Shown here in pieces: positions 16,275-53,807 of a stretch of DNA of 64,000 nt. Under the pieces are notes generated by a model. That model had not been told where the DNA came from and did no database searches. It saw only the letters and a list, made by a program, of their open reading frames with translations. Every line of letters starts with the position of its first letter. The first letter of the stretch is position 1. The position numbers were made by a program, and so were the translations under genes. Source of the DNA: Ceratodon purpureus (taxonomy: Eukaryota > Streptophyta > Bryopsida > Pseudoditrichales > Ditrichaceae); NCBI GenBank assembly GCA_014871385.1, contig CM026422.1, positions 11,594,718 to 11,658,717 on the forward strand, read 5' to 3'.

Positions 16275-17713
16275 GAAAAAACCAAAAAAAAAAAACTGGC
16301 ATCTTAGTCACGCTCATTGAAGAGAAATAAAAAGACCCTTAAACAAACCAAGTTTTTGGATGGAATTATTCCATCAATCTTCCTTTTTACATGATTATTT
16401 GTTACCACATGTATCATTTTGTATCATGTATCATTTTATAGTACAAACAATGTGAAGCTTTTATTTCTTCCTTCTCAAGGCAAGGGTTATAAACCTTCTA
16501 CTATTATTAAAGAATGTAATCAATACATCATCTTGGGCCTCATTGAACTATACTTTTCTTTCATACCAATAACATCCATTATTCAAAAATATATCAACCT
16601 CTAAAAAAAATGGTGTATGCATACATTTTCATTATATTGTATGGGCTTCAGTGCAAGCTTGAATTATTTCCATGGATACATATTGCCCCTTTCTTTACAT
16701 GCATGATTTCTAAAAGCATATGGTGTTATTATTACCATTCAATCAACCTCTTAATATCTGCTGTGACCATTGCAACCAAATATATAAAACATGTTTTCAT
16801 TGTATTTGAAACAACGCCGCTTCTTCAATGAGTTTGACTCAAAAGGAAAATTTATATTCATATTTATGTGGATTTGATGGAATATTGTGATCCCAAATTA
16901 GAGTTTCTTACTAGCACTAAAATTCCAAAATTATATCAAAAGTATATTCTATTCATCATTAGGGGCATTTTAAAGTTTATTTTGGTGTAAATCACAATTT
17001 TCAATGGTATTGTTTATTTTTTCAAAGTTGAGAACTATTTCAAATTTGAATTTATCAAGAATGATGTTTCCACACGAGTAACCATGTTATTTATTGGTAT
17101 GTAAACCAAAATCCTTTCAAGGATATTGTAGGTACAACAAATGTACTGCCCCTTATTTCTGAAGATGTACAATGGAAGTGATCACTGTAGTAAAATTTCA
17201 AATCACAGTAACACATGTCATTGCAAGACACAACTTGTCACAGATCATTTTATTGCAAGCAATTAAGGTAGAGGTACTGAAAACCGAGCAGCTCCAAAAA
17301 TCGTGCAGTAGGGAAAGGAGTAGGTTTTCAAAACCGACTACCTTGGGCAGTAAAAAAACGCAGCGAAAAATAATAATGGTAAAGAGAACGGTTTATAGTT
17401 AACTATGGGTTTGTTTAGGCTAAGAATTTGGATGGAAAATAGATTCTTACCGAACATAATGACGGTTGTAAAAGGGCATACTAATGAGGAGTGATGCTCA
17501 AAAAATTGCCCACAATTTTGACGGTTAGTTCAATAAAGAGTATGTAATTGGCATCCCTTTCGCATGCTTCAAGGATGAAGTGAGGCCACCATTGCAACCT
17601 TATGGGGTTTGATTTTTGAGACACTGTGGCTTGTTTTAGTGAAGAGAGGCACACTCTTGGGCATGTAGGAGGGTGGGTTTAGCACTAGTTTCTCTTGGTA
17701 ATTGAGGGCAAAG
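16275..17713. other. Intergenic, AT-rich, no gene seen
   Basis: Short frames of 60-76 codons occur but look random. The right part (about 17170-17713) may already belong to the transposon whose transposase begins at 17714. Neither terminal repeat of that transposon was found. Confidence 0.45.
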
Positions 17714-20700
17714 ATGGAGACATTAGAGGAGGGGGGTGAGAGCTTCATGAGTGACGAAGATGTGGTGCATGAGACCCAAGCACCCATGTCTTCACAGCAC
17801 TTTTCAGTACAATATGGATATAGACAAAGGATAAATGAGAGTTTGGACTTTGATGATCACATGGCATAAGTAGAGTATGGAACTAGAAGGAGATATAGAA
17901 ACTCTGCACCTACACTGGATGTAAACTCTATTAGCAACTCAAATCAGCAAACACATAGAGGGGGAAAGGAAGGGAGGAGATCAAGTTTGAGGAGTTCCTC
18001 ACCTTTGGTGCACCAATGCACCTCTCAAGTTGATTTCAGCACTGAAGGGGGTGATGCAAATGTTTAGGGGGGCCTAGGAATTTTGTGACTCCACCTACAA
18101 GGACTGAAGAAGGCACATGCACAACAACAAGGAGGGCAGCAATGAAGAAGAATGGCAATCGGACAAATGCCTAATTGAGAAGAGCTATTGATGCAATTAC
18201 AGATTTTAGGATGAAGGTAAGAGATGTAGCTAGAACCTATGGAGTTCCTGCAAGTTCAATTACAGATCACTTGTATGGCATAACAATAGGGGGAAGGAGG
18301 GTAGTAAAGCCAGTTTTGGGAGATGATGAAGATAAAAAATTGGTTGACTATTTATTCAAGATGCAAAATTTGGGCCACACTTTAACCCGAAGCCAATTGA
18401 GGTTGAAAGTGGCCCAAGCTACACAAGCTAAGGAGGCACCATGGAGTGATTTGGGAATGCTTGGAAGGAGCTGGTTCAAAAATTTCAAGCATAGACATCC
18501 TGAATTAACCTCTAGGAAAAGCCAACCACTAGAAGGAGCAAGGGCAAGAGGTTTATGTCCTTCTAATGTAGCTACTATTTACCAAAACTTAGAAAACCTA
18601 TACAATACCTTTAAGTACCCACCCTCACACATATGGAATTGTGATGAGAGTAGTGTACAAGGTGGAAGGAGTTGAGGTGCTACTGTTTTGGCTAGAGTTG
18701 GCTCGAAATCTGTACACGCAATAAAGCCAGACCAAAGGGAGCACTTATCAGTTTTGAGGTGCATCAATGTTGATGGTGGAAAAATACCTAATTTCTACAT
18801 CCTAAAGGGGACATATTTCTTGCAAGATTATGTGGAAAAATGTGAGAAGGGTGCTGTGATGGCTATGCAACTTAATGCACAGATGACTAAGTAGCTCTTT
18901 CAGCCATGGATTTCACATTTCCTTGGATCCTTGAAGGAAACAACAAGCATAGACAAGGAAAACATGCACTTACTAATTTTAGAAGGCCACAATTTGCATG
19001 TGACTTTTGAGGTGGTCACCTTGGCCATGAAGGAGGGCCAAGACATTGTGACATTACCTGCGCACACATCCTATGCCTTGCAGCCATTAGATGTGTCATG
19101 TTTCAAGCCCTTTAAGTCTGCCTTTAGATAAATAAGAGATTTGTGGACACTAGAAAACAAGGTCAGAAAAGTAGAGAAAATGATTTATGTGAGTGGACTT
19201 CTATGGCTTTGGAGAAGTCACTTATTCCAAAGAATATGAAGTCAGGTTTCAAAAAAACAGGGATATAGCCTTTGGATAGGGAAGTTGTGGCAACAAGGCT
19301 TCTACCAAGTCAGAGATTTCAAGAGGATGGTGGGAAGGATTACCTGGAGGAGGAGGGCAGCGGTAATGAAGATGGCTCTCCTCATGAGGAAGGCGAGGGA
19401 GACTGCAGTGACCAAATACTACTGCCAACTATCACAGGTAAGCTATTGCTGCCTCAAAACTGCCTACACAATGCATAACCTAAAACAACTAAAAACTAAC
19501 AGTAACTACTTAACTACATCTGGCCGTGATTGCACACAAGGGGTCGGGGATGAGCTCCAGCCAGCCAGCTACAAAGTCTAGTCAAATTCACCAAAGTTTT
19601 ATAAATCAGCTACAAAACCGGGCGAGTGAAGAGACAGGCGAACAACCTGCATACAATGAAGAGCCTTTAATTTACAGGCATTGGAAAATAAAAATAAAAA
19701 CTAATAAACTGATTGTGTTTGTGGCTGCAGGGGCGGGACTTACCTACTCTCGAAATGAAACTGCAGGTCATTGAGATGAAGCGACTCCAACCTGTATATT
19801 GCCAGGAGCAAGGATTAGAAAGATTTGAAAATAAAAAAATATTAATTGATTATGTTTGTGGCTGCAGAGGCGGAACTTACTACACACACTCGGCTACCAA
19901 CAGGTAAGAGCCAATGAACGCATCTCCTCATGGCCTGATTTACTAGGTGAAAGCAGAGTATAACGAGAGCACCAAAGAAGTACGAGAGTTTGCAAACTTT
20001 AAACCTCATGGCTGGAAACTTACTGTGCAGGGCCGAGACCTAACGAGAATGGGACTGCAGCACCAGGTGAGTGTCTCACAACATCTTGTGCGCCCTCCAC
20101 AAGCAATAGAAATCAATTCAAAAATCGCAATTTTAAAATTTTAAAAAAACTAACCAACTCGGAACTTACCCAGCAGGGCCGAGTCCGACAACCTTCGAGA
20201 CTACTCCGGCAAGGGAGCCTCTCGCCGACCTCCTCGCGGCCTGCAGATGGAGTGGCATCCAGACTCAGAAACTACAGTTTAAAATCAAAAACAAAACTAA
20301 TACACTGAATGATGTTCTGTGCAGGGTTGAAACTCACCTACTCCGCAACTGCTCCACCAGGTGAGCCTTTCACCGACCTCTTCGCAGACACATTCCACAC
20401 TAAAAAAAATAGTTTTATGTAGAATTAAAAGCAAAACTAATGAACTCGAAGCTGTTCTGTCTAGAGCTAAGACTCACCAACACCGCGACTGTTGTACCAA
20501 ATGAGCCTCTCGCCGACCTCCTTGCGGCCCGCACACGGAGGAGTGGCACCTTGACTTAGAAACAACATTTTTGAAAATTTAAATTTTTTTTAAAAAAAAC
20601 TAAAAAACTCAATACTGTCTGTGTACGGCCAAGACTCATCAACTCTCCGACCGCTCCACGAGGTGAGCCAGTCACCGCATCACCTCTCGACATGTACACG

Positions 20701-21303
20701 CAGTGACATGACATTTGAAAACCGCAGCTTGGAAAACAGATTTAAAAAAAAACGAACTCAAGGCAACTGCAGACGAGATCTATGTTGAAAACGGCACATT
20801 GCAAACTTTCAAAAAGAAGTGAGTACCACAACTCTGCTGTAGAGGTGCTTGAATCGCTTACTCAACAATTGCTCCAGCAGTTGAACAACAAGGTGAACAT
20901 CAAGCCCAAGGCAGCTAGGGGGACAACTCTTGGAATTGCGGGGAGGATCTCTTTGGATCTGGATTTGGGAGTGGGGGAGGGGAACCTACATGCAACAACA
21001 AGACACTTTTATGTGGATGTCCCAGATCCACATTAAAGTAATTATGACACTTTTGAGCAACATGTGAACATAGATCCTACATTTAGGGCGGAGATAGAAA
21101 GAAGAAACGAGGGGGATATCACTCAATTTCTATACTTGCCTGAACTCATTCTAGCAAGGAAAAGAAAGAGACAACAACCACTTCTTGACTACACCCACAA
21201 TAGGATCTTAACATCAGAAGACTACATGAATGTTGCTCTTATCTTATATCCTCCAACTTCATGTTATCTATTGGACTTTGAAACCAAAAAGCATTTACTT
21301 TAA
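17714..21303 (+). pseudogene. Pogo/Tigger-type (CENP-B-like) transposase, broken
   Basis: From 18178 the frame encodes a helix-turn-helix (RRAIDAITDFRMKVRDVARTYGVPASSI), then a CENP-B-type binding region, then a DDE domain. The first catalytic Asp is kept in IWNCDESS. The second motif reads LILEGHNLHVT, with Glu where Asp is usual (DGH). The third is kept in SYALQPLDVSCFKP. A diagnostic GFKKTGI-PLDREVV follows, then an acidic stretch. The usual C-terminal motif, here LLDYTHNRILTSEDYM, appears only at 21196-21243, beyond an array of small modules. An N-terminal acidic region starts with ATG 17714. Stops at 18673, 18892, 19129 and 19267, a TAA at 21034, and frame changes before 18079 and near 19150 show it is dead. 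Confidence 0.85.
19402..20662 (+). repeat. Tandem array of nine 36-nt exon-like modules inside the transposase gene
   Basis: Nine blocks of exactly 36 nt start at 19402, 19541, 19731, 19868, 20031, 20177, 20325, 20465 and 20627, spaced 137-190 bp. Eight are preceded by AG (often TGTGCAG or GGCTGCAG). Six are followed by GT (often GTGAGCC or GTAAG). The other donors (TC, GG, AT) and one acceptor (AC) look decayed. Read as 2 nt + 11 codons + 1 nt, all nine are open; examples are AGLTYSRNETA, AELTTHTRLPT, LKLTYSATAPP, LRLTNTATVVP and PRLINSPTAPR. The spacer after the module is also shared (CTCTCGCCGACCTCCTCGCG). A tenth block may start at 20773. Inference: one symmetric micro-exon and its introns were duplicated repeatedly. 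Confidence 0.75.
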
Positions 21304-50930: not shown

Positions 50931-53807
50931 ATGAGCGGATTCTATTTCGTCGTGGTGCGCAGCGATGGCGGACTTCGTCAAGCCGCCCCGCTCCAGAGCG
51001 TGGCCGTGACGGGTCTGATCCGCGACGCGGTGGCAGAGTATACGATGATCCAAACTTACGTGAATCCGCTTCCCAAGGAGTATATCGATGGGGCTTACAC
51101 ATTCCCGTTGTATGAGGGTGTGGCTGTGACAGGGTTTCAGGCGGAGGTGGGCGGGAGGAAGATCGTCGGCAAAGTTGCGGAGAAGGTTGCGGCGAGGGAG
51201 GAGTACGAGGAGGCTGTGAGAGAGGGGAAGACAGCTTCGTTGTTGGAGCAGGAGAAGCCTGATATGTTCCAAGCTAGTATTGGAAATATTCCGCCGGGGA
51301 AGACGATCTCCATCTGCATCACTCTTGTGTCGGAAATGAAGCACGATGCGGGTGAGAATCAAGTCCGGTTCGTCTTGCCCACCACCGTGGCACCTCGTCA
51401 TGACAGCAGTTTCAATATGCCCGATTTCAGCGGCAGGGGATTTGTGAGGTATCCGAATTCGAGTTCCCCCTTTTCAGTTCCTGCTTCCAAGCTTTCTATC
51501 AACATGGCTTGTGTCATGTCCAAGCCTATCACTTCAGTGCAGTCGCCTTCCCACACAATTGAAGTACATGTCGGCACCACCGAGACTACGGGCTCTTTAG
51601 AATCGTACACCTTCGATCCAAATCGCGCCAGAGTGAGCCTCACGGAAGATGCTCTCCTCGACTGCGATCTCGTCATCATCATCCAGTCACGCGGGCTAGA
51701 TCAACCGCGCGTGCTCGTGGAGCATCACCCCAAAGATCAAACTCACGCAATTTCACTAACATTCCAGCCTCGGTTTACACTTAAGCCCCTGCAAGCTTCC
51801 GAGCTCGTCTTCCTTGTCGACGTCCGCTCGAAATCAATGTTGACACGGGCTGGAGAGGCGCTGGAGCTTTTCCTCCGATACATCCCCTTTGAAAATCATT
51901 ACTTCAATGTCATGGGGCGAAGCACTACGTTTGGTTCCAGCCAGCAGGCCTTATTTCCGACGTCTGTCGAATTCTGTGCGGAGTCTTTGAGGGAGGGAGT
52001 CAAATATGCGCAGAAAATCAAAGGTTACGAAAGCGGCATCGAGATTGGGAGCGCCTTCCTGGAGATTTCCCTACGCCGTCGTCGTGACGTCCCAACGCAG
52101 ATCTTCCTGCTCACCGACGGACAGATTTCGGAAATAGAACAACTTCGAAGAGCCATAAGCAACGCTGTTGACGATGGCGAGAGGAGCAATCAACCCTTCA
52201 GAGTATTCTCTCTTGGCATTGGTGACTCCGTCTCACACCATCTTATCCAATCGGTAGCAAGAGCTGGCCGTGGATACGCCCAGTTGGTCATGGCGGGCGA
52301 GCGCATGGAAAAGAAAGTCTTCAACATGCTCAAAGCAGGACTTATGCCTCCTGTCACCGACACTACTATACAATGGACCGATTCAATTGTGAACGATTTT
52401 GTTATGGTCGGAGGCGAGGACGGTGCTGATGACGATGTCGCTCTTGTGAATAACAATGCCAGCAAACCGCTCATCAATTTATTCTCGGATTCAGAATCCC
52501 CGCCAACGGTCTCACAAGATACTCCACCTCCTGATATCTCTGCTACAATTTACCAAGCGCCGTTCAAGCTCCCCATTCTGTGCCCCGGAGCCAGGTTCAC
52601 AGCCTACGCAATTCTCTCACCAACAATTCCCCTTCCGAAGGAGCTCATTCTGCGCGGTGTCTCTCCGGATGGGCCAGTGGAGCTCCGGGTGAAGATCGAG
52701 TCCGTCGTCGAGGGTGAGACGATGCTGCATTCCCTTGCAGCCCGAGCCTTGGCGCGCGATTTTGAAGAAGCCTCCTCTTCTGTTCACGCACTCGGGAAGC
52801 AGAAGCTCGCACTTTACGAGAAGCAAAAGCTCAAGCACCTTGGCGTGTCTGTGGCGCAGCGAGAAGGCCAGAATCGGAGCGATATCCTGCCCTTGAGCTT
52901 CAACCACGTCGCCGAGATCACAAAACAGAAGCTGATCGACATTGGAGAGACGTATAACCTCTCCACGAAGTATACCAGCTGGGTGGTAATCGACGAAGAG
53001 GGCCCCCGGAACGCCCGAGATGTTGTCCCCGTCGGCTCATATATAGTTGATGTTTCGCGACCCCTCCCTCCTACACCCTGCTTTGGCCACACGACCCCGA
53101 TCTACGGCTCGTCGTTCTTTGGTGAAACTCAAGCATTTGGTGCATCAACTCCAGCATTTGGTGCATCAACTCCAGCATTTGGTGCATCAACTCCAGCATT
53201 TGGTGCATCAACTCCAGCATTTGGTAATTCATCAACTCCAGCATTTGGTGCCCCTCCAGCTCCAGCTTTTGGTGCCATCGCAGCTCCAGCATTTAGTGGA
53301 TTTGGTCCAGCATTTAGTGCAAATGCTTCATCAGCTCCAGCATCTGGTGCACCTCAAGGTGCACTATTTGGGGCACCTTCAGCATATGGTGTACCATTCT
53401 CGTCAAGCACTGGTGTATTCGGAAGTCAAGCCTCGCCCTTTCATAAAGCGCCCATGAGCCCTACCAATCCACAAATGCGGCTTCAATCTCTCCTGCAACT
53501 CCAATCGTTTGATGGCTTGTTCCCGCTGGTTCCAGCCATTGCAGCTCTCTTTAACACGACTGTCGACAACTTGAAGACGAAGCTAGGAGAGCTTCGAAAG
53601 CAGTGCACAGGATTGGTAGTGTTGGCAGAAGGGCAATGGGAGGCAATCTGGGCGACGTGCCTGACTACAGAATTCATCAAGTCGAAACTTAAGGAGCTGC
53701 GAAACGAGTGGGAGCCCGCCGTGGAGAAAGCTGAACGTCGAGTGGCATTTTTGGTGTACAATGAAGAGCATATTGCTCGCTTTAAAGCGTTTGCCAGAGC
53801 TACCTGA
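50931..53807 (+). CDS. VIT and von Willebrand factor A domain protein with FG repeats, intronless
   Basis: The 958-residue protein starts at ATG 50931 (MSGFYFVVV). A VIT domain fills about 10-150 ([40 protein letters not shown]). A vWA domain follows at about 290-470. Its metal site, normally DxSxS as in DRSGSM, reads DVRSKSM, with one extra residue. TDG (FLLTDGQ) is kept. Residues about 730-840 are FG repeats (FGASTPA), including four perfect 21-bp units at 53133-53216. The C-terminus ([12 protein letters not shown]) resembles the end of PARP4/VWA5A-type proteins. This architecture is common in fungi, so lateral origin is possible. The role is unknown; relatives are linked to protein-protein interaction. 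There is no intron in 2.9 kb. Confidence 0.87.
53133..53216 (+). repeat. Four perfect 21-bp coding repeats (FGASTPA)
   Basis: GCATTTGGTGCATCAACTCC(A) is repeated four times exactly, each coding seven residues of the FG-repeat region. Related but diverged units continue to about 53440. Perfect identity points to recent expansion or slippage, so copy number may vary between individuals. Confidence 0.92.

Follow-up and report, generated by a model that had tools for sequence, protein, structure and literature searches.

Nine blocks of exactly 36 nt stand in a row inside a transposase gene of the moss Ceratodon purpureus, and the question they raise is whether they are exons of that gene or a DNA repeat of some other kind. 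The window (the whole stretch of 64,000 nt that was analysed, positions 11,594,718 to 11,658,717 of the forward strand of contig CM026422.1, assembly GCA_014871385.1) contains a copy of this gene, and further copies lie elsewhere in the genome. The initial annotation, made from the letters of the window alone, took the blocks for nine exon-like modules that arose when one short symmetric exon was multiplied together with its introns. We examined this proposal in the window copy and in other copies of the element.

The window copy and its blocks

Pfam analysis of pieces of the window copy identified HTH_Tnp_Tc5 (E = 1.4e-7) and DDE_1 (E = 4.5e-9), which confirms that the array lies within a pogo transposase gene. 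The conserved C-terminal stretch was located 3' of the array, in agreement with the statement that this motif appears only after it. Among the copies checked that have the D letters, 10 of 12 show DD35D spacing (L050 was unreadable in this check); in the window copy the spacing is 35 and the second D is changed to E. The spacings given for pogo elements in a survey of the superfamily are DD35D for Fot and Passer, DD29-42D for Lemi and DD29-36D for Tigger (PMC7386202). The moss copies resemble the pogo superfamily (Tigger, Lemi, Fot) in having HTH_Tnp_Tc5, DDE_1 and DD35D, and the domains and DDxD spacing of the window gene place it in this superfamily, within the IS630-Tc1-mariner group. The window copy is dead: four stops interrupt its exon-1 part, the frame shifts between the catalytic region and the tail, and one more stop lies in the last exon.

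The 5' end of the element lies at about 17260-17264, where the alignments of seven copies start (L042, L038, L040, L036, L041, L035 and L037) and where the copies have (T)TAAGGTA in common. Toward the 3' side, the window copy is similar to other copies up to about 21230, and in those copies the frame ends beyond that point. An inverted-repeat search for transposon ends in the window returned AT-rich chance pairs only. In 10 copies, the roughly 1 kb that follows the C-terminal stretch contained no convincing inverted 3' end, and the best match was 12 nt long, in L042.

The nine blocks, each of 36 nt, start at 19402, 19541, 19731, 19868, 20031, 20177, 20325, 20465 and 20627, with start-to-start spacings of 139, 190, 137, 163, 146, 148, 140 and 162 bp (range 137-190 bp). 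AG stands directly 5' of eight blocks (the exception is 20627), and GT stands directly 3' of six (the exceptions are 19541, 20177 and 20465). Phase 2+33+1 is open in all nine, and the other two phases contain stops in two and four of the nine blocks, respectively. This recount was identical to the initial one, including the report of stops in several blocks in the other phases. The blocks, together with their spacers, derive from one unit whose copies have diverged (ungapped repeats reach 106 nt at 60-85% identity), and the array of about 145-bp units is absent from the Tandem Repeats Finder output for the window. When the interval of the window copy was parsed for splice sites without regard to reading frame, four internal exons were predicted, all of them 36 nt long.

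The count of nine modules had to be revised at one end. The exon-1 frame runs through the first block as ...EGDCSDQILLPTIT, which is followed by gtaagc. Block 1 (19402-19437) therefore belongs to exon 1, as its 3' end, and does not stand as an exon of its own. The proposal of exon-like modules stands for the remaining eight: blocks 2-9 would be eight micro-exon modules, and a ninth module-like stretch would open the last exon. This last stretch (20845-20880) resembles a further block and has a stop in phase 2+33+1 and no donor; the start of the last exon at 20843 presumes a phase-1 reading of its acceptor. Both splice sites are present in four of the eight modules; loss of the donor affects three, and loss of the acceptor one. 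The features of the window copy are:

17263..18174, + strand: 5' part of the element before the first recognised transposase domain
18175..19437, + strand: exon 1 remnant (HTH_Tnp_Tc5, DDE_1, acidic tail), with donor gtaagc in phase 1
19541..19576, + strand: predicted module 1, VGDELQPASYK; no donor (GT replaced by TC)
19731..19766, + strand: predicted module 2, AGLTYSRNETA; both sites present
19868..19903, + strand: predicted module 3, AELTTHTRLPT; both sites present; 3' part matches L068 1256-1286
20031..20066, + strand: predicted module 4, PRPNENGTAAP; both sites present
20177..20212, + strand: predicted module 5, PSPTTFETTPA; no donor (GT replaced by GG)
20325..20360, + strand: predicted module 6, LKLTYSATAPP; both sites present
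20465..20500, + strand: predicted module 7, LRLTNTATVVP; no donor (GT replaced by AT)
20627..20662, + strand: predicted module 8, PRLINSPTAPR; no acceptor (AG replaced by AC); similar to the final module of L068
20843..21230, + strand: predicted last exon with one stop; module-like 20845-20880, joined directly to the conserved C-terminal part

Predicted exon lengths and phases in other copies

The genome was searched with a 67-residue C-terminal piece as query, and 150 of 351 candidates were scored. The C-terminal stretch of a pogo-type transposase was matched at at least 149 genomic places (E ≤ 0.001). This abundance in Ceratodon purpureus contrasts with the low amplification stated in one survey text, according to which pogo is without significant amplification in land plants (PMC7386202). 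The same text confines land-plant pogo elements to eudicots, and a second survey confines them to Selaginella and dicots (PMC7325037).

Twenty copies were taken with 5 kb of upstream DNA, and the transposase core was present in 16 of them. L034, L044, L046 and L049 have the C-terminal stretch and no transposase core within 5 kb upstream, and L068 has no core recognisable by eye in the 2.3 kb examined; all five may be deletion derivatives or fragments. The interval from the acidic tail to the C-terminal stretch measures 0.9-4.1 kb as cut in the 16 copies and 1.7 kb in the window copy. Direct repeats were found within it in the window copy as well as in 10 of the 16 others. In L036, no clear exon structure is visible at about positions 970-1210 of this interval, which hold purine-rich, TTAGAAGTCAG-like repeats of about 100 bp. 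Two pairs of copies are nearly the same. L035 and L037, on different contigs, share about 99% identity across most of the element, and their alignment begins at the element 5' end, which suggests recent transposition. Judged by its alignment, the pair of L032 and L033 is a segmental duplication and not two insertions, because 99.6% identity spans the entire 6.2 kb of two stretches 40 kb apart.

A scan of the other copies for exact 36-nt AG...GT blocks yielded mostly chance matches and was dropped; it was uninformative because the micro-exons of other copies differ in length. We used instead a parser blind to reading frame, in which donors, acceptors and branch sites are scored with general plant weights not trained on this genome. 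The parsed set consisted of 15 intervals, that is, 17 minus the near-duplicates L033 (of L032) and L037 (of L035). L034, L044, L046 and L049 were omitted for want of a transposase core, and nine extra loci with 1.5 kb of upstream DNA only were parsed but not counted.

On the forward strand of the 15 intervals, the length of the predicted exons was a multiple of three (3n) in 27 of 31 cases at scores of at least 18 and in 18 of 18 at scores of at least 20; modules of one array inherit the length of their founder, hence such copies are not independent, and with each length counted once per copy the figures were 22 of 26 and 14 of 14. The reverse-complement control gave 3n lengths in 10 of 28 and 5 of 13 exons at the same two thresholds, and both strands of the remaining window gave 13 of 29 and 1 of 7. 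Dinucleotide shuffles of the intervals produced 3n lengths at chance. The excess was stable under five parameter changes and became weaker at lower scores (37 of 47 at scores of at least 16, and 60 of 101 uncut). When exons of up to 150 nt were allowed, the reverse strand was also in excess at scores of at least 18 (17 of 34 were 3n). L067 and L068, which were taken after the parser had been written, gave 3n lengths in six of eight exons at the lower threshold and two of four at the higher one; by eye, two of the non-3n calls, both in L067, arose from the choice of a neighbouring AG. Introns between strong exons had 3n lengths in 12 of 25 cases, which is more than one third.

The ends of the flanking exons agree in phase. 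The best exon-1 donor was in phase 1 in all 12 copies with a candidate (of 17 examined; two of the 12 are near-duplicates), and the best last-exon acceptor was in phase 1 in 15 of the 16 copies with a candidate, some of these acceptors being AGs within the conserved coding stretch. The calls for L039, L041 and L050, which sit on a conserved AG within that stretch, were set aside. Under a filter that was set post hoc, 10 of 10 acceptors that scored at least 9 and lay at least 90 nt upstream were in phase 1. The coding phase was open in 16 of the 18 3n exons that scored at least 20, compared to 13 and 6 of the 18 for the other two phases; the first of these two figures makes openness by itself weak evidence. 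Together, the 3n lengths, obtained without knowledge of the frame, and the matching phase 1 across copies argue for the initial proposal that one short symmetric exon was multiplied with its introns.

Turnover of the arrays and of their peptides

Other copies of the element have short predicted exons of their own at the same place, and the numbers differ from copy to copy. L042 contains six 30-nt modules and one 33-nt module at a spacing of 145-165 bp, with the acceptor lost in two of the 30-nt modules, and a further 33-nt module-like stretch served as its last-exon start in the phase test. Predicted exon lengths are 45, 36, 48, 51 and 48 nt in L048, 45, 45 and 48 nt in L040, and 45, 42 and 48 nt in L036; within the arrays of these three copies and of L042, lengths differ by threes. 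L067 has about eight modules of 42-48 nt, mostly 48 nt, with a G-x-x-R-x-L-P-like start (assigned partly by eye), and its last exon opens with the same motif. At most two convincing micro-exons were found in L032, L035, L038, L039, L041, L043, L047, L050 and L051, of which L047 and L051 have one exon instead, of 126 and 129 nt. The starting state was likely one or a few symmetric exons that were later multiplied separately in some lineages. As far as these sequence comparisons reach, the micro-exon row is a family-wide and fast-changing feature that extends beyond the window copy. The xLxLTxSxTAPx-like peptide described from the window held up as part of a variable linker but is atypical of the family, because other copies have exons of 30-66 nt with other motifs.

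The unit was sought by DNA search as a satellite outside the transposon, and the window array matched only itself in the genome; the same search missed the related but diverged array of L068, so that array searches of this kind are insensitive at this divergence. The L042 array matched other copies only from its last exon onward, and the L040 array gave matches from its last exon onward and to one 42-nt stretch elsewhere. The L048 array also matched L067, at the exon-1 tail and the first module. In the window copy, modules 3 and 8 enclose four others (20031, 20177, 20325 and 20465), and their counterparts in L068 enclose two (of 39 and 33 nt). These differing counts, together with a peptide that shows no conservation, fit the linker of variable length that had been suggested.

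Between the modules of one array, pN/pS in the coding phase ranged from 0.80 to 1.03, and the other phases gave similar values. The window array gave 1.03 over nine blocks, including the last-exon start, and 0.96 over seven; L042 gave 0.95 and L067 gave 0.80. Measured in this way, the modules of the window, L042 and L067 arrays show no peptide constraint. Identity within the window array was 0.52 for exons and 0.45-0.47 for spacers, which have thus diverged about equally. Since pN/pS is near 1 and exons and spacers are equally diverged, the frame and the splice sites appear to have been kept while the peptide was nearly free to change. The comparison of block and spacer divergence envisaged in the initial annotation accordingly turned up a kept frame and equal divergence, but no constraint on the peptide. 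This pattern suits a linker whose length would be of little importance and whose sequence would matter still less.

Explanations, related elements and known systems

The blocks probably are, or descend from, spliced exons, and we think it quite likely overall that symmetric phase-1 exons and their introns were multiplied separately in several copies, giving variable linkers. Under this explanation, the blocks would be protein-coding micro-exons, partly decayed in the window copy. Exon 1, with the DNA-binding region, the DDE domain and the acidic tail, would end in phase 1, the last exon would start in phase 1, and the short 3n exons between them would be symmetric (1-1). The repeated unit would hold an acceptor, a micro-exon and a donor, and therefore its duplication or loss would keep the frame; duplication may proceed by unequal exchange or slippage. 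Separate multiplication would have occurred in the window copy with L042 and L068, in L048 and L067, in L040 and L036, and in L045. With the exons presumably spliced into the mRNA, the catalytic core and the C-terminal stretch would be constant among the products, and the linker between them, which may be flexible or disordered, would be copy-specific in length and sequence. A bolder and rather doubtful idea is that this moss transposon family has evolved micro-exon cassettes of its own, with copy-wise turnover, optional splicing and many linkers around a fixed core. If so, the cassettes could vary the transposase (its activity, its partners or its recognition by host silencing) and leave the domains untouched.

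The unit of about 145 bp could instead be an ordinary tandem repeat in one long intron, with AG, GT and the open phase as accidents that were copied along. A repeat derived from one ancestor would retain an accidental 36-nt spacing and an open phase, so that the window by itself is compatible with this account too, the peptide has changed in a near-neutral manner, and plain repeats do occur in the same interval of other copies, for example the purine-rich repeats of L036. We nevertheless regard this account as improbable, because it does not explain why 3n exons recur across arrays that do not match one another, why lengths within an array change in steps of three, or why exon 1, the modules and the last exon have phase 1 in common.

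The letters within the blocks also allow them to be read as the 3' ends of introns, with ACTNAC-like branch sites and CAG inside the blocks and with CAG|GTGAGC as alternative acceptors of one last exon. Blocks such as 20325-20360 hold CTCAC...CACCAG, and in L035, L037 and L038 the last exon starts with GTGAGC after a CTAAC branch site, so that the same letters are readable both ways. However, every intact module is flanked by a strong acceptor of its own on the 5' side and by a donor on the 3' side, some modules of L048, L040 and L036 are without such letters, and the 3n rule would have no reason; this reading strikes us as very improbable. Least credible of all is the idea that the transposase or a host factor binds the array as a set of iterons, in which case the array would be kept as DNA and not as protein. 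Binding sites in transposons are known to take the form of regularly spaced repeats, but the arrays of different copies did not match one another by DNA search, with the exception of the first module of L048 in one other copy. This is ill-suited to a shared binding protein, and the 3n and phase rules would again go unexplained.

A related clade appears to have a linker of another make. In L052 (C10:9732264-9735955) and L053 (C13:1917246-1920937), a single frame extends from the catalytic domain as far as the C-terminal stretch, with open stretches of 917 and 681 residues, respectively. Their linker is rich in D, E, Q, R and H and consists of in-frame minisatellites with periods of 21, 24 and 54 nt, with weaker ones as well in L053. 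In an unrooted protein tree of 24 copies, a split with 99% support separates L052, L053, L024, L025, L028, L029 and L054 from the 17 interrupted copies; the continuous frame was verified directly for L052 and L053 only, and that of L054 is broken by frame changes. L052 and L053 resemble the array copies in having the same domains, the same C-terminal stretch and a hypervariable repeated linker at the same place. In contrast to the array copies, their linker lies in one open frame and needs no introns. The two clades offer a natural comparison of what would be two routes to a length-variable linker.

Rows of symmetric micro-exons are known from a few host genes. In titin PEVK, elastin and collagen, a protein stretch of variable length is encoded by repeats of short symmetric exons; unlike these host structural genes at fixed loci, the moss array belongs to a mobile element and its module number differs by copy. 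In the micro-exon genes (MEGs) of schistosomes, very small symmetrical exons of 6-81 bp, the majority of them 3n, make up most of the coding region, and this structure permits protein variants through alternative splicing; MEGs encode secreted proteins and are apparently restricted to platyhelminths (PMC4350168, PMC10526429). The moss transposase likewise has rows of very small symmetric exons, here predicted, and its arrays may work like MEGs, to which they are unrelated, so that we compare them with MEGs and do not class them as such. Its coding region is, unlike that of a MEG, mostly one exon with the transposase domains, and the micro-exons would form a single linker, lack the signal-peptide context and vary from one mobile copy to another. 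Alternative splicing has been demonstrated for MEGs, whereas the moss micro-exons are known from DNA sequence. The main texts of the two pogo surveys do not contain the word "intron" (PMC7386202, PMC7325037), and no description of micro-exon arrays in a transposase was found among titles and the opening parts of abstracts of the open-licence papers searched.

Many copies, from young to old, are present in one genome, and the birth, spread and decay of micro-exons could be traced in them step by step. The rule that holds micro-exons to 3n lengths and phase 1 can likewise be followed across copies. Automatic annotation may well split such genes or overlook their small exons. Elsewhere in the window, positions 53126-53321 hold a tandem repeat with a period of 21 nt, a multiple of three, in 8.9 copies with 84% matches.
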